NCBI GenBank assembly: GCA_903889425.1
Contig: CAISXI010000489.1
Coordinates: 1-43,527 of the forward strand
Reading direction: 5' to 3'
Source: an uncultured Roseiflexaceae bacterium
Lineage (GTDB): Bacteria; Chloroflexota; Chloroflexia; Chloroflexales; Roseiflexaceae
Length of the DNA stretch: 43,527 nt
Positions within the stretch are counted from its first letter, which is position 1. Every line of letters begins with the position of its first letter. Of the stretch, positions 32,729 through 39,653 are shown one piece after another. The notes beneath the pieces were generated by a model, which was not told the DNA's origin, ran no database searches, and saw nothing but the letters and a program-made list of their open reading frames with translations. Both the position numbers and the translations under genes were made by a program.

Positions 32729-34258
32729 TTATTGACCGACGATGACGTCGCCTTCTTTGAGACCTTCGAGAATTTCGACCCGATCGCTACTGACAATCCC
32801 GATGCGCACATCTTGGCGGCGTTGAGAGGTGCCGTCTTTGATAACCACAAAGCGCCGACCTTCAAATGATCGTACGGCTTGAGGTGGTAACCACAAGGCA
32901 TCTTTTTCGCGTTTGAGGGTAATGACCACAGATGCTAAATCACCTACGGTGACTTTCATATCTGCGGGTACCTGGTAATCGACGTGATAGGCGGGGTCAG
33001 AATTGATTGTTGATGATGACGATGTGGCTTTGGTGGGCAACTTCACGATGCTCCCCGTGACTGCTACGGCAGGAGCGCGGGCAAAAAAGATATCGACGGC
33101 CATGCCAATCCCGATGCGGCTGGCGTCGTCACTCGATACATTTTGGATGAGCAGCTCTTTTTGGGCATCGTTGATTACCGTGATAACCGAACGGTAGGCT
33201 TCGACTTGTTTGCCGGGGCCTGTTGAAATTTCGGCGACGATACCATCAAATGGGGCAATCAACTGCCCAGCCGAAATCGCTGTTTGCAGATTTTCGAGCT
33301 GGAGCTTGGCGGCAGAAAGTTGCTTTTCGAGTTCGGGGTTGCTGGTTTGGGCGGCTTCTTGGACAGAGAGTTGGGCGCGTGTGACGGCGCGCTTTGCTGA
33401 TGCCAACGCCACAGGATCGGTGTTTTTGGTGAGGTCGTCATAGGCGATTTGGGCTTGATCGAGGTTGGCTTGGGCTGCATTAATCAACGGTTGGCGATTG
33501 GCTTGGGCCGCAATGAGATTTTGGTTGGCCGTATTCATTGCTGCAGTGCCGGCGTCAACGTTGTTTTGGGCATTGATATAGGCAGCGCGGCGGCGGTCGT
33601 ACATGGCGTGGTCGGGGTTGTCTTTGACCCCATCCCAATCATACAACGCTTGTGAAAACGCTTCTTGGATGAGGGGCAATGAGCGTTGCGCCGCATTGAG
33701 AGTTGCTTGTTGATCAGCGATGGCATTGGCGGTGCTGGCAATCACACTCGCCAAATTTGCTCTGGCGTTTTCGAGGGTACTGCGGGCCCGGGCCACATCT
33801 GATGGCAGTGGGTTAGTCAAGCGGTCTAAATTTGCCTGGGCTTCATCCAAATCGAGTTGGGCGCGCTGGCGAGCCAAATCACGTTGTTTGGCTGCATAAT
33901 CATATTGGATTTGTACTTGGGTCAAATTGACTTCGGCTTGGCGTAGTTGATTGGGCAATTCGCCGAGGTCAAGTTCTGCGAGGACTATTCCTTTGGTGAT
34001 GATATCGTTGCGTTCAATGCTGACTGATTTGACAAAACCGTTTTGGGCAAACGAAAGCTCTTGTTGTTTGAGGGCGGCCACGGTGCCACTGACTTTTATT
34101 TCGTCGACTACTTCGCCTTTGGCGACGGTGTAGGTCTGCTTTTCGAGGGCGGGTGCCGGTGGTCGTGGTGTGGGTGTGACGGTGTCTTGAGTGGTACTTG
34201 CCGTACTACACGCCGACAATGTAATTGCCATTAGCAATACAACGAGCGTTAAACGCAT
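32729..34258 (-). CDS. HlyD/RND-type adaptor lipoprotein
   Basis: This 509-aa protein has a lipoprotein signal (MRLTLVVLLMAITLSAC, lipobox LSAC) and a Thr/Pro-rich linker. A lipoyl-like part (VDEIKVSGTVAALKQQ), a long Ala/Gln/Asn-rich coiled coil (about 95-320), a second lipoyl half (LIAPFDGIVAEISTGPG) and beta-barrel and C-terminal domains (ALWLPPQAVRSFEGRRFVVI) follow. Such adaptors work with FtsX-type permeases, as in YknX of Firmicutes. The long helical hairpin would reach well beyond the membrane. The start at 34258 has aagggg 6 nt upstream. It is the first gene of the operon. Confidence 0.9.
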   Translation of the reverse strand: MRLTLVVLLMAITLSACSTASTTQDTVTPTPRPPAPALEKQTYTVAKGEVVDEIKVSGTVAALKQQELSFAQNGFVKSVSIERNDIITKGIVLAELDLGELPNQLRQAEVNLTQVQIQYDYAAKQRDLARQRAQLDLDEAQANLDRLTNPLPSDVARARSTLENARANLASVIASTANAIADQQATLNAAQRSLPLIQEAFSQALYDWDGVKDNPDHAMYDRRRAAYINAQNNVDAGTAAMNTANQNLIAAQANRQPLINAAQANLDQAQIAYDDLTKNTDPVALASAKRAVTRAQLSVQEAAQTSNPELEKQLSAAKLQLENLQTAISAGQLIAPFDGIVAEISTGPGKQVEAYRSVITVINDAQKELLIQNVSSDDASRIGIGMAVDIFFARAPAVAVTGSIVKLPTKATSSSSTINSDPAYHVDYQVPADMKVTVGDLASVVITLKREKDALWLPPQAVRSFEGRRFVVIKDGTSQRRQDVRIGIVSSDRVEILEGLKEGDVIVGQ

Positions 34259-34559
34259 AAAAAACCCCTTTTGTTTTGGTGATTTACTCACATACGTGTG
34301 ATAAACGTAATTATAAACTATTTTAATAGTGTTTTGGATGAGAAATCTCGCAAAGTTAAGTGTTTTTTGTCAAAATATTGAAAGCAATCAGTATTTTTTG
34401 GTGTTTCTAAAGAAGTGTATGGTATTTGCAGTGCTTGATATAGATTTAGACATGAGTTTACCGGTGCTGTGCACCGTGTTTGTGAATTGCCCGTAGATTT
34501 GTAGTATGAATGGTATAATTCAGATAATGGTTTTCAGTGGACGAGTATAGTGGTGTGAT
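34259..34559. other. AT-rich divergent intergenic region
   Basis: This 301-bp gap separates the export operon from the pseudo-PP2C gene. It holds the extended -10 listed separately, a small dyad cggtgc-tgt-gcaccg (34462-34476) upstream of that promoter, and a minus-strand TATAAT at 34310-34315 that could drive the export operon. No ORF or RNA gene is evident. Confidence 0.5.
34511..34519 (+). promoter_or_regulatory. Candidate extended -10 promoter for the pseudo-PP2C/zwf run
   Basis: TGGTATAAT is an exact extended -10, 40 nt before the ATG at 34560. No good -35 is visible, which is acceptable for this class. Confidence 0.5.
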
Positions 34560-37148
34560 ATGGTACGCATGCGAACCCGCAGTGTCCAATTTAGTGTGAG
34601 TCAAGGCGAAAATCCGCTTCCCAACGATACACTCCTCATCTGTGAGGCCGAAGACCCGTTATCGATGGAAGCGCGTAAAGGCGAACTTTTTATTATTGTG
34701 GAAAGCCAACAAGAATTGGCTCGCCATCGCCAACCGTTGCAACTTGTCTTGCGGACAGTGCGTAAGTTTTTTTATGAAAACGCCTCGTTTAGTGTGCAAT
34801 CATCGTTGCGCCGTGCCATCATGGCAGCCAATCAGGCATTGTATGAATACAACATGACCCAAGACCAAACCCGGCGGGTTTCGTTTGGGATGACCTGTGT
34901 GGTCATCAAAACCCAAGATGTGTATGTTGCACAAATCAACCCCACCCAAATGTACATCTTTGGTGATGGTCAACTCCGTGCCATCCCGTCGAGTGTGTTG
35001 TGGCGGACTATTCACTATACCCCGACCCCTGTCAATGTCGGTAGTATGCTGGGGAGTTCATTGAGTGTCGAGCCGGAATTCTTCCGTGCCATGTGGACAC
35101 CCGGCGAAACCTTGATGCTGGTAACGAGTAATTTGGCGCAAGTGCTTGATCGCGATACGGTGGGACGGATTTTGCGTCTGGTAAACCCCGCCAAAATGGT
35201 CCAAGCTTTGCGTGAAGTCTGCCACAGCAAAGAAATCGGTGATGCCTATGGGTTAACGATGGTGCTCGATGCCAATGTCGCAGATGAAGTACCGGCAGTG
35301 TCAGGTGGTTTTTCGAGTATTACCCAACAATTCGTCCTTGCTGGGGACACTACTGGTTTGTGGTTTGCGCATACGGTGAAGTGGATTCGTGGTTTGTTGT
35401 TAGGTAGCGAAGATTCGCGGTTTGCTTCTTCTGCCAAACGCTGGCGCGGTATCACTCGTGATGAACAACAACGCATGCATCGCCCGGCGCCTGAAGTTCC
35501 CTATGTCGTTGATCCAATTCCTAACCCAGTTCCGCTAGATTTGGGTGAATCCATCGAAGACCAAGCAGAAGCCTTGGCAGTGGCCAAATACGGCAAGCGC
35601 CGCACCGTGCAATCAGACGACCGCCCGTTGCGTGTGGTGCATGCAGTTGATGTCGAAGTGCCATATACCCCCGTTGATACTGATTTTACGCGGCGGAATA
35701 CCGGTTTCAAAGTACAAGTGACGGAACCAATTCGCTACGGGACTTTTTTTAGCACGTTGTTCCAGGGATTGTTTGTGCTCCGTTGGTTACCAAAAAACAC
35801 AACTGACGCCCGTCGCATGCAATCTGCCACCCGCGGTGAAGGATTGTCGTATCGCAAGCAACGCCCCCCATTCCCGTGGGCGATGTTGTCATTGATGATT
35901 GCACTCGTGTCAATCGTGTTTTTTTATGGCAAAAACGTCGCCACCGAACATCGCTTGCAACGGGGCGAAAACAGCATCCTGAGCGCAGAACAATCGATAC
36001 AAGCCATCTATGATTCGGCGAGTGAAACAGAAGCGACCCAACGCATCGAAGTATCGCGTTCGTTGCTCGATAACCTACAACAAAGCGGTATTATTACGGC
36101 AACCACCGAAAACCAGCAGCGGTTTTTGGCGATGGTGACCAAAATTGAAAAAGCCCAGAGTGTGGTACAACGCCGCGCATACCTTGATGATGTGACGGTA
36201 GTGGCTCAGCATCCGGTCAAGGGAGGGGTGTTTAGTACGATTGTAATTCCACCGCCATCCGATGGGTATGCCAACGTTGATAGTTTTAATTATTTTTATC
36301 TGCTAGATACGAACGCAGGTGTGGTATATCAGACGCCGCGCGATGGTGGCAGTCCTGTGCCGATGCTCCGTCCTAATGACCAAATTGGTGAAGTCACCGT
36401 TGCCAAGGTGTTTGATATTGCATGGCGTATTGACGGAGTGGTGGGCTTGGCGCAGAGTAGCAACAACGGGCCGGCGGTCTATTTGTTCCGTAATGGCAAC
36501 GACTGGAATTATAGTATTTTGGCAGGAAGTATGGAGTGGCAGATTGGCGATCATCATGTGCGGATGCAGAGCTATGGTGGCAATCTGTATGTCTGGGGCG
36601 TTACTCAAGCGAATATTCTGCGCTTTTTGTCGACCCAAATCGCCGACTTCCCTACCCCATGGATCCAAAACGACGGCGGTGTGGCGATTGACCCTGCCGT
36701 CGACATGGGGATTGATGGGCGGGTCTATTTATTGATGCCAGACGGCACAATCCATGTGTTCCAAGCAGTACCAGATGGGGAACGGGGCTACGAAAAAAGC
36801 ATCGTGCTGAAAAACATCACCCCAGCGATTCAATCGGTGGCTCGGTTGATTGTCACGGGTGATGGTGAATCTGGGTCGTTTTTTATCTTGGATAGCTACG
36901 CGGCACGGATTATTCAAATCGAAAAGCGCACCGGGCGGTTTATCCAACAAATCATACTCCCTCCTGACAGTCCAATTGTCCTTGATAATTTGACCGCGCT
37001 TGCGCTTGACGAAAGTCAAGCGCGGCCGGAATTATATTTTGCCAATGGCGGTGTGGTCTACAAGGCACCCTTGCCTGAGCCACCCTTGCCGTTTAATCAG
37101 CGGGTAGACAATGTCGTACTCCCGACTACTACTGTCCAAACACCATAG
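34560..37148 (+). CDS. PP2C-like (probably inactive) membrane protein with propeller-like C-terminal half
   Basis: This 862-aa protein has a cytoplasmic N-terminal domain (about 1-240) laid out like a PP2C phosphatase. LRRAIMAANQALYEYN, FGMTCVVIKTQDVYVAQINPTQMYIF and ETLMLVTSNLAQVLDRD match the family's helix, GTT/GDSR and SDGL regions. The metal-binding aspartates at those places are not present (INPTQ, TSNL). A linker follows, then one membrane helix (about 440-460). A coiled segment and an outer half of repeated beta strands, such as YFYLLDTNAGVVYQT and GRVYLLMPDGTIHVF, look like a propeller. The ribosome site is weak. It is divergent from the export operon and 9 nt upstream of zwf. Function unknown; a sensor role is inference. 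Confidence 0.75.
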   Translation: MVRMRTRSVQFSVSQGENPLPNDTLLICEAEDPLSMEARKGELFIIVESQQELARHRQPLQLVLRTVRKFFYENASFSVQSSLRRAIMAANQALYEYNMTQDQTRRVSFGMTCVVIKTQDVYVAQINPTQMYIFGDGQLRAIPSSVLWRTIHYTPTPVNVGSMLGSSLSVEPEFFRAMWTPGETLMLVTSNLAQVLDRDTVGRILRLVNPAKMVQALREVCHSKEIGDAYGLTMVLDANVADEVPAVSGGFSSITQQFVLAGDTTGLWFAHTVKWIRGLLLGSEDSRFASSAKRWRGITRDEQQRMHRPAPEVPYVVDPIPNPVPLDLGESIEDQAEALAVAKYGKRRTVQSDDRPLRVVHAVDVEVPYTPVDTDFTRRNTGFKVQVTEPIRYGTFFSTLFQGLFVLRWLPKNTTDARRMQSATRGEGLSYRKQRPPFPWAMLSLMIALVSIVFFYGKNVATEHRLQRGENSILSAEQSIQAIYDSASETEATQRIEVSRSLLDNLQQSGIITATTENQQRFLAMVTKIEKAQSVVQRRAYLDDVTVVAQHPVKGGVFSTIVIPPPSDGYANVDSFNYFYLLDTNAGVVYQTPRDGGSPVPMLRPNDQIGEVTVAKVFDIAWRIDGVVGLAQSSNNGPAVYLFRNGNDWNYSILAGSMEWQIGDHHVRMQSYGGNLYVWGVTQANILRFLSTQIADFPTPWIQNDGGVAIDPAVDMGIDGRVYLLMPDGTIHVFQAVPDGERGYEKSIVLKNITPAIQSVARLIVTGDGESGSFFILDSYAARIIQIEKRTGRFIQQIILPPDSPIVLDNLTALALDESQARPELYFANGGVVYKAPLPEPPLPFNQRVDNVVLPTTTVQTP

Positions 37149-37157
37149 GAGTACGTC

Positions 37158-38678
37158 ATGACAATGCGTGGAATTGATCGCGGCGCTTCGGCCGCGCGGG
37201 TGTCGGATCCGTGTACGATTGTTATCTTTGGGGCGACGGGGGACTTGACGCGGCGTAAGCTGGTGCCAGCGCTCTACAACCTGCGCCGCGAAGGGTTGCT
37301 CGATACCAACACTACCATCCTCGGCTTTGCCCGGCGCGATTGGAGCGACGACTACTTCCGGACGCTTCTTTTTGAAGAAGGCAGCAAACACTCGCGCTCG
37401 GGCATGTCAGACGAATTATGGCCGGCGTTTGCGGGGCAGGTGCATTACATCCGTTCAACCTTCGAAGATGCCGAAGGCTATATCGCCTTGGCACAACGCC
37501 TCGCCCAAATCGATGAACAACAGGGCACCCAAGGCAATCGACTGTTTTATCTGGCCACCCCCCCAGAATCATACGAAGATATCATCAAACAGCTGGGGGC
37601 GGCAGGGTTGGCCCAGGCACTGGGCAATAGTTGGACCCGCATTATCGTCGAAAAACCGTTTGGTCATGACCTCGAAAGTGCCCGCCACCTAAACAGTGTG
37701 CTGCATGATGTCTTTGACGAGCGCCAGATTTATCGTATCGACCACTATCTCGGCAAAGAAACCGTCCAGAATTTGTTGGTGCTCCGTTTCGCTAATGGTA
37801 TTTTTGAGCCGTTGTGGAATCGGCGCTATATTGACAATGTGCAAATCACGGTGGCCGAATCAATCGGCGTCGAAGGGCGTGGCGGCTATTATGAACAGGC
37901 TGGCGCCTTACGTGATATGGTGCAAAACCATATGATGCAACTATTGTCGCTCACCGCCATGGAGCCACCCGTGGGTGGGGCGAGTGCCGATGCGGTGCGC
38001 GACGAAAAAGTCAAAGTGCTCCGAGCCGTGCGACCAATAGCCCGTGAAGATGTCAATCGCTACACGGTGCGCGGGCGCTATACCGCTGGCCCTGGCTCGG
38101 CGCCGGCCTATTTGGACGAAACTGGCGTTGCCCGCAACTCAACCACCGAAACCTATGTGGCGCTCCGGCTCGAAATCGAGAGTTGGCGTTGGGCCGGCGT
38201 ACCGTTTTACTTGCGTACGGGCAAACGTCTGCCCGTGCGCGCCAGCGAGATTTCGGTGACGTTCCGCAGTGCGCCGTTAATGCTGTTCCAAGATAGTATC
38301 ATGTCACGGACGGCCCCCAACGAGCTGGTGATTCGCATTCAACCCAACGAAGGTATTTCGTTGCGGTTTAATTCGAAAGTACCTGGTCAAGCGGGCGATA
38401 TTCGACCGGTGACGATGAATTTTAACTATGTCGAGGCCTTTGGCAGTGAATCACCCGAGGCCTACGAGCGCTTGTTGCTCGACGCCATGATTGGTGATTC
38501 GACGTTGTTTACGCGCAGTGACGAAGTCGAAACGTCGTGGGCGTTGATGAATCCTATTTTGCAAGGCTGGGAATTATTGGGATCGCCGGTGCACGAATAC
38601 GTAGGGGGGAGCTGGGGACCCGATGCCTCGCACGAATTCATTGGTGCTTCGGGGCGGAGCTGGCGGCGATTGTCATAA
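37158..38678 (+). CDS. zwf: Glucose-6-phosphate 1-dehydrogenase
   Basis: This 506-aa enzyme oxidises glucose-6-phosphate with NAD(P)+, the first step of the oxidative pentose phosphate route. It has the N-terminal dinucleotide site IFGATGDLTRRKL (about 23-35) and EKPFGHD. The substrate and catalytic motif RIDHYLGKE is at about 193-201, and the C-terminal domain is typical (WEL.GSPVHEY). Length is normal (about 490-510). aggag overlaps the preceding stop codon, so translation is coupled to the pseudo-PP2C gene. No gnd or pgl is adjacent. Confidence 0.96.
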   Translation: MTMRGIDRGASAARVSDPCTIVIFGATGDLTRRKLVPALYNLRREGLLDTNTTILGFARRDWSDDYFRTLLFEEGSKHSRSGMSDELWPAFAGQVHYIRSTFEDAEGYIALAQRLAQIDEQQGTQGNRLFYLATPPESYEDIIKQLGAAGLAQALGNSWTRIIVEKPFGHDLESARHLNSVLHDVFDERQIYRIDHYLGKETVQNLLVLRFANGIFEPLWNRRYIDNVQITVAESIGVEGRGGYYEQAGALRDMVQNHMMQLLSLTAMEPPVGGASADAVRDEKVKVLRAVRPIAREDVNRYTVRGRYTAGPGSAPAYLDETGVARNSTTETYVALRLEIESWRWAGVPFYLRTGKRLPVRASEISVTFRSAPLMLFQDSIMSRTAPNELVIRIQPNEGISLRFNSKVPGQAGDIRPVTMNFNYVEAFGSESPEAYERLLLDAMIGDSTLFTRSDEVETSWALMNPILQGWELLGSPVHEYVGGSWGPDASHEFIGASGRSWRRLS

Positions 38679-38726: not shown

Positions 38727-39653
38727 ATGCGGCGGTACCGAATTTTGTCGTTTGATGGTGGCGGGATCCTCGGCGTATTGACATTGGTGGTACTCGAGCG
38801 CATCATGCGCGAGTTCCCTGATTTCTTGGCGCATGTCGATTTATTTGCCGGCACATCGACGGGTGGGATTATTGCGCTGGGGTTGGCCAAAGGGATGCAC
38901 CCCCGTGATATTCGGGCCTTGTACGAAGGCAAGGGCGCGACGATTTTTCGTGATTCGTGGGTCGACGACGCCCTCGACTTTGGCAACATGATAGGTGCCA
39001 ATTACGATAATCGGGGTCTCGAACAAGAACTCAAACGCATATTTGGTGATACTACCCTCGGTCAACTCCCCAAGCGGGTGTTGGTGCCGGCATTTGATCT
39101 TGACAACGTATCACCCGACCCCAAATTACGCAGCTGGGAAGCCAAGTTTTTTTCGAATATGGGTGGGGCCTTTGGTGACCAAGAAGTGCCGGCGTACAAA
39201 GTGGCGATGTATACCAGTGCTGCCCCCACCTACTTCCCGGTATACGAGGGGTATATCGATGGTGGGGTAGTGGCCAACAACCCCAGTGTGGCGGCGATTG
39301 CCCATGCCCTCGACACCCGCAAAAACCCGGCAGCCCCCCACCTCGAAGACATCGCATTGTGTTCGTTGGGGGTGGGGCAGTCGTTGCGTCATTTAACCGG
39401 CGATCGCCTCGATTGGGGCTATGCCCAATGGGCGCGCCCGCTGGTTAATATTTTGATTCATGGGGTGATGGGGGTTGCTGATTATCAATGCCGGCAATTT
39501 TTGCGGGACCGCTATTGGCGGGTCAATCCGGTGTTCCCTCCAGGCATCGAAATCAATCTCGATGACGTGGACCAGGTAAGTTATATCAATGAATTTGCCC
39601 AACAAATCGATTTAAATGAAACGTTTTTGTGGATTGACCGTAGCTGGCGGTAA
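38727..39653 (+). CDS. Patatin-like phospholipase
   Basis: This 308-aa protein of the patatin family has a Ser-Asp dyad. SFDGGGILGVLTL is the oxyanion-hole loop, FAGTSTGGII holds the nucleophile (Ser44), and DGGVVANNP holds the Asp (Asp178). No signal peptide is seen, so it is likely cytoplasmic, acting on membrane lipids or storage esters. Patatins also occur as CBASS effectors, but no cyclase lies near. It is convergent with the small membrane-protein gene, with only 2 nt between the stop codons. Confidence 0.9.
   Translation: MRRYRILSFDGGGILGVLTLVVLERIMREFPDFLAHVDLFAGTSTGGIIALGLAKGMHPRDIRALYEGKGATIFRDSWVDDALDFGNMIGANYDNRGLEQELKRIFGDTTLGQLPKRVLVPAFDLDNVSPDPKLRSWEAKFFSNMGGAFGDQEVPAYKVAMYTSAAPTYFPVYEGYIDGGVVANNPSVAAIAHALDTRKNPAAPHLEDIALCSLGVGQSLRHLTGDRLDWGYAQWARPLVNILIHGVMGVADYQCRQFLRDRYWRVNPVFPPGIEINLDDVDQVSYINEFAQQIDLNETFLWIDRSWR

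Follow-up and report, generated by a model that had tools for sequence, protein, structure and literature searches.

A conserved Chloroflexota membrane protein with a degenerate PP2C domain and a predicted outer beta-propeller, probably a non-catalytic receptor or scaffold

PstP of M. tuberculosis combines a cytoplasmic PP2C domain with one transmembrane (TM) helix and an outer domain (PMC12088040), and PknD, a receptor kinase of the same species, carries a six-bladed beta-propeller sensor outside the cell (PMC3322341). TAB1 and PHLPP2 are eukaryotic PP2C pseudophosphatases that bind one metal, which in PHLPP2 is a zinc (PMC12002173). The PP2Cs that have been studied use five conserved aspartates to hold three metals, all required for activity (PMC3375153), and in bacterial PP2Cs the motif-5 aspartate is required for the third metal (PMC4524716).

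Here we describe a gene in a window of 43,527 nucleotides (the whole stretch of DNA that was analysed) from an uncultured Roseiflexaceae bacterium, whose 3.6 Mb draft genome has mostly Roseiflexaceae MAGs as its closest named relatives. PstP, PknD and TAB1/PHLPP2 each share part of the design of its product. The combination of these parts, with conservation across the phylum, appears to be undescribed in the literature searched; no bacterial receptor-type PP2C pseudophosphatase was found in the open-access literature, which is weak evidence, and nothing was found there on a Chloroflexi PP2C with NHL. To our knowledge, pseudophosphatases are known mainly from eukaryotes. We consider it probable that the protein is a non-catalytic transmembrane receptor or scaffold, that is, a receptor-type pseudophosphatase. 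The original prediction had proposed much the same, a TM receptor whose phosphatase serves as a scaffold or signal reader, and the analysis below supports this as the best reading.

Domain layout and predicted fold

The gene (34560..37148, + strand) was called as an open reading frame encoding 862 aa, in the order PP2C-like domain, linker, TM helix, stalk and propeller. Orthologs share its alignment start and have similar lengths, so we regard the gene model as sound. A Pfam scan of the 862-aa protein gave zero matches above threshold and found no kinase domain; a PP2C fold stands in its place. The Stp1/IreP family model NF033484 (NCBIfam) scored 34 bits (E 2e-8), below the curated cut-off of 230 bits, and the protein is accordingly not counted as a member.

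Two computational routes, profile comparison and predicted structure, agree in supporting a PP2C/PPM fold for the N-terminal domain (residues 1-240; 34560..35279, + strand), as the original prediction had read from its layout. A profile of residues 1-250, built from 28 sequences and compared with the PDB, matched the cyanobacterial PP2C tPphA (2xzv) with E 6.1e-12; Stp1 of S. aureus and PstP ranked below it. The AlphaFold model of the domain had a pLDDT of 84.6 and a pTM of 0.83 and was least certain at residues 151-160, the region of the flap, which is shortened relative to that of tPphA in the sequence alignment. Foldseek paired this model with PstP (2cm1) at E 2.2e-13 (TM 0.69/0.74) and with tPphA at E 1.2e-12, the query TM being 0.69-0.70 for both. 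Residues K40, G41, Y72, N91, Q125, P128 and W148 are conserved in the domain among orthologs.

The domain is followed by a linker of variable length and sequence (residues 241-427; 35280..35840, + strand) that is poorly conserved, carries indels among orthologs and is probably disordered. A juxtamembrane motif conserved in the ortholog alignment (G-L-S/T-Y-R-K/R; residues 428-440; 35841..35879, + strand) reads GLSYRKQRPPFPW in the window. Hydropathy places one TM segment at residues 438-456 (35871..35927, + strand), overlapping a helix that the structural model draws from 440 to 484. Because the basic residues of GLSYRKQRPPFPW precede this segment, the positive-inside rule predicts an N-in/C-out orientation, with the PP2C-like domain in the cytoplasm. 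Most orthologs have one TM segment and some have a second; in every member checked a TM segment separates the two halves, and it is usually the only one.

Beyond the membrane, the model of residues 428-862 (pLDDT 83.4, pTM 0.76) shows a long helix extending from the membrane, two further helices and then a run of beta-strands. We assign residues 459-536 (35934..36167, + strand) to an extracytoplasmic helical stalk and residues 539-838 (36174..37073, + strand) to an NHL-like beta-propeller, both on predicted structure. The solved folds nearest to the outer-half model in Foldseek were mostly six-bladed propellers (SMP-30/Drp35, the designed Pizza6, the TRIM2 and Brat NHL domains, and PknD), and 1rwl, the PknD extracellular domain from M. 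tuberculosis, matched at E 1.6e-7 with a TMt of 0.73. One membrane helix leading to an external beta-repeat half, as first read from the sequence, is thus what the predictions give. The layout is that of a PknD-type outer sensor, in which a TM helix leads into an outer propeller with six blades, a number read here from the best matches.

Set beside the described systems, the protein resembles PstP and the Stp1-type PP2Cs in its fold and in being a membrane protein with PP2C inside, but differs in the loss of its metal ligands and in having a propeller on a helical stalk as its outer half. Like PknD it is an integral membrane protein with an outer propeller of six-bladed type; unlike PknD, its cytoplasmic half is a dead PP2C rather than a kinase, and the propeller likeness is one of fold only. 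As modelled, the protein pairs an outer part resembling the sensor of a receptor kinase with an inner part resembling a dead receptor phosphatase.

Active-site positions and selective constraint

When the domain was aligned with tPphA, INPTQ (residues 126-130) paired with HVGDSR and TSNL (residues 189-192) with CSDGL, confirming that these two stretches stand where GDSR and SDGL are expected. In the HMM alignment, the position of tPphA D34, which we take to be the metal-bridging aspartate, is occupied by E48 (34701..34703, + strand), and that of D119 in the GDSR motif, presumably the third-metal aspartate, by P128 of INPTQ (34941..34943, + strand); here the tPphA numbering was matched to sequence alone. 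D193 of the SDG motif is replaced by S190 of TSNL (35127..35129, + strand). An aspartate is retained at D231 as D228 (35241..35243, + strand), and D24 (34629..34631, + strand) is a possible equivalent of D18, although this pairing is uncertain, since it comes from a MAFFT alignment and lies beyond the HMM-aligned range. The claim that the metal-binding aspartates are absent therefore stood for D34, D119 and D193 and did not stand for the two positions at which D24 and D228 align. The full set of five ligands (tPphA D18, D34, D119, D193 and D231) is not present in this protein.

We tallied these residues over 80 orthologs from many families. Two losses are near-fixed: the D119 position is proline in 79/80, and the D193 position is non-Asp in 78/80 (serine in 59, aspartate in only 2). 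Glutamate occupies the D34 position in 67/80. The positions of D18 and D231 are variable, with aspartate at the former in 45 of the 80 and aspartate or glutamate at the latter in 34 and 19, respectively. D34, D119 and D193 occur together in none of the 80.

With these ligands lost, the domain would be without catalysis. One residual metal, held by E48, D24 and D228, is possible by analogy with TAB1 and PHLPP2, and it somewhat weakens the receptor or scaffold reading. Taken further, the same three carboxylates at former ligand positions, with the frequent glutamate at D34, could be read as the altered metal centre of a divergent but active phosphatase. We regard this as very improbable. The motif-5 aspartate on which the third metal depends (PMC4524716) is the one replaced by proline nearly throughout, D193 is almost always gone where studied PP2Cs conserve all five ligand aspartates (PMC3375153), the D24 and D228 positions are unconserved, and the flap is shortened.

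The degenerate domain shows no decay. Compared with the three nearest relatives its dN/dS was 0.068, 0.068 and 0.091, and in two other close pairs it was 0.052 and 0.025; the outer half gave 0.035-0.075 in the same pairs (Nei-Gojobori estimates, for which some dS values approach saturation). These sequence-derived ratios indicate that the PP2C domain is under purifying selection. The fold is thus kept, the ligands are lost and the orthologs are constrained, as in a PP2C pseudophosphatase. TAB1 and PHLPP2 are alike in all of this, with a retained PP2C fold, lost metal ligands and a domain conserved for non-catalytic work, but they are eukaryotic, have other domain architectures and show different losses.

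Gene neighbours and distribution

The original prediction also linked the gene to its neighbours, holding that it is translationally coupled to zwf and divergent from an export operon. The zwf gene, encoding glucose-6-phosphate dehydrogenase (G6PD; 37158..38678, + strand), begins 9 bp downstream of the stop codon, and a Shine-Dalgarno-like AGGAG overlaps the TAG stop, an arrangement compatible with translational coupling. The divergent orientation was confirmed: a HlyD/MacA-like protein (32729..34291, - strand) belongs to a HlyD/FtsX/ABC export operon on the opposite strand. After zwf, genomes of the window's genus have a patatin-like phospholipase (38727-39653 in the window).

Adjacency to zwf is a family trait. 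Within the window's own family, 19/22 scorable genomes have zwf directly downstream, mostly at a gap of 9 to 32 bp or with a 4-bp overlap (some of these distances depend on the choice of ORF start); no locus examined outside the family has it there. The export operon adjoins the gene only in the window's genus. Coupling is therefore plausible locally, and the further idea that the protein links outside cues to central metabolism or export did not hold up, as the protein is conserved far beyond both arrangements. A regulator of G6PD or of the neighbouring ABC exporter would fit the short gap, the AGGAG and the divergent operon, but we judge it extremely improbable: such links fail to explain a phylum-wide gene, since one is family-only and the other genus-only, and the differing neighbours elsewhere speak against any role dedicated to metabolism or export. 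Moreover, in L037, a relative from another genus, zwf is followed by opcA, which is what one would expect if a G6PD operon merely lay downstream.

No gene partner conserved across the phylum was found among the loci examined; neighbours switch by family and include a small lipoprotein in family f4, surE with DUF6062 genes, and tsaD. The f4 gene follows the pseudophosphatase at L043:8425-9087, L044:11622-12149, L050, L097, L098 and L040. It encodes a small conserved protein with a lipobox-like signal (LSGC-type) and no Pfam match, which is a candidate outer partner; in L043 and L044 the two genes share 4 bp at the stop of the pseudophosphatase. A TPR-repeat protein of ~700 aa, encoded directly upstream on the same strand at five loci (L064, L068, L069, L099 and L102), is a candidate cytoplasmic partner. 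In families f31 and f20 (L078-L080, L091, L092, L101) the pseudophosphatase has dnaA-dnaN-recF or a BFN-domain gene close by. L105 and L109 are MAG records that bear the titles Singulisphaera sp. GP187 and Thermoflexus hugenholtzii; they hold close orthologs in a window-like zwf/HlyD context, and the titles look misassigned.

An order-level profile matched 148/158 genomes of the class and 91/93 of the good ones, a tally that includes one-half partial matches in more distant families. At 40 fetched loci inspected domain by domain, both halves matched within one ORF in nearly all. A broader profile (A5) matched 257/300 genomes at E <= 0.001, all of them from the phylum, with ordinary PP2Cs included among the weak matches. 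Strong full-length A5 matches were spread through many families and much of the phylum; families such as f19, f16, f26, f29 and f53 gave weak matches or none. That the same design and the same broken site are kept across most of Chloroflexota makes a non-catalytic role probable.

Intact-site relatives and the proposed role

Six relatives in families f28, f43 and f46 (L074, L075, L082, L083, L084 and L095) read RDDGDDD at the seven checked positions, an intact site. These families are, at a guess that rests partly on PP2C number, Ktedonobacteria-like. Pfam PP2C recognised all three of the intact-site proteins that we scanned. Each of the relatives has a TM helix and an outer module alignable to its counterpart in the dead forms (hhalign probability 98.1, E 1.2e-13 against a distant dead set; 96.3, E 1.5e-9 against a near set), so that domain order and outer module are shared and the catalytic positions differ. 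These PP2C-TM-stalk-propeller proteins are presumably active receptor phosphatases, and possibly undescribed ones.

In a 75-row tree of the N-terminal domain, the dead label needed 2 changes, the dead forms did not fall on one side, and several branches were very long. In a reduced tree a single branch with an SH-aLRT of 100 separated the dead forms from all other rows, and the active receptors grouped together with 95; this tree came from a quick search, is unrooted, and omits 13/75 rows dropped by our choice as long, truncated, near-identical or unstable. The sequence data thus favour, but do not prove, a single loss of the active site, and with unrooted trees we infer the direction, loss rather than gain.

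In the window's genome Stp1-type PP2Cs are matched separately, and there are eight Pkinase matches. The dead protein persists in two genomes (G296 and G165) that gave no Stp1-type match and only 1-2 kinase matches, so it is not simply an accessory of Stp1-type phosphatases, and a tie to the Ser/Thr kinase/phosphatase system, which we considered, is weak.

A cell-wall association was looked at through murG. Among 39 murG-negative genomes of the phylum a strong full-length ortholog was present only in three drafts of 90-95% completeness (G000, G188 and G369), and many murG-positive genomes carry one while many others are without the protein; the comparison was made by eye between two tables, with unlisted negatives deduced from numbering gaps. 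The window's own draft (G000, 90% complete) gave no murG match although G010 of the same genus has the gene, which probably reflects an assembly gap. The association hints at the envelope, but it tracks lineages and so does not count as independent evidence.

A purely structural tether, fixing the wall or some surface structure to a complex in the cytoplasm with the domains as binding modules and no signal, would leave traces identical to those of a receptor. It would suit a core-gene distribution with no conserved signalling partner, the near-confinement of strong orthologs to murG genomes, and the lipoprotein gene that comes next, in some genomes overlapping, in one related family. We nonetheless think a tether unlikely, as an ancestry in signalling is suggested by the PknD-like sensor fold and by a PP2C origin for which an intact-site relative exists, and the murG pattern is confounded by phylogeny.

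The receptor or scaffold reading draws its support from the PP2C fold, near-fixed ligand loss, constraint, wide distribution, TM helix, PknD-like outer domain and intact-site relative, and from the retention of the gene in G296 and G165. The lack of a conserved gene partner across the phylum weakens it. Domain order, fold, loss of active-site residues, a single TM helix and purifying selection are established at the level of sequence and structure prediction; ligand binding, the direction of signalling and a partner for the pseudophosphatase are suggested by analogy with the PknD sensor outside and a TAB1/PHLPP2-type dead PP2C inside. On that analogy, the outer propeller would bind a ligand, such as an envelope component, surface protein or lipoprotein, and binding would act on the stalk and the single TM helix, which couple the propeller to the cytoplasmic PP2C fold, by changing their conformation or clustering. 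That fold, no longer hydrolysing phosphate, would offer a protein-binding surface that includes the conserved residues listed above, and would bind or release a cytoplasmic partner.

We tentatively extend this to the history of a core TM receptor of Chloroflexota, in which an ancestral receptor phosphatase would have lost its site once and then been kept in most lineages as a non-catalytic envelope-sensing adaptor, with the active form persisting in the Ktedonobacteria-like ones. If true, this would be a natural enzyme/pseudoenzyme pair of shared architecture. Comparison with the intact-site relatives makes it possible to test directly which properties came or went with the death of the enzyme. 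Near-universal in good genomes of the class, wide in the phylum and lacking a Pfam match at threshold, the protein is probably part of the core cell biology of Chloroflexota.
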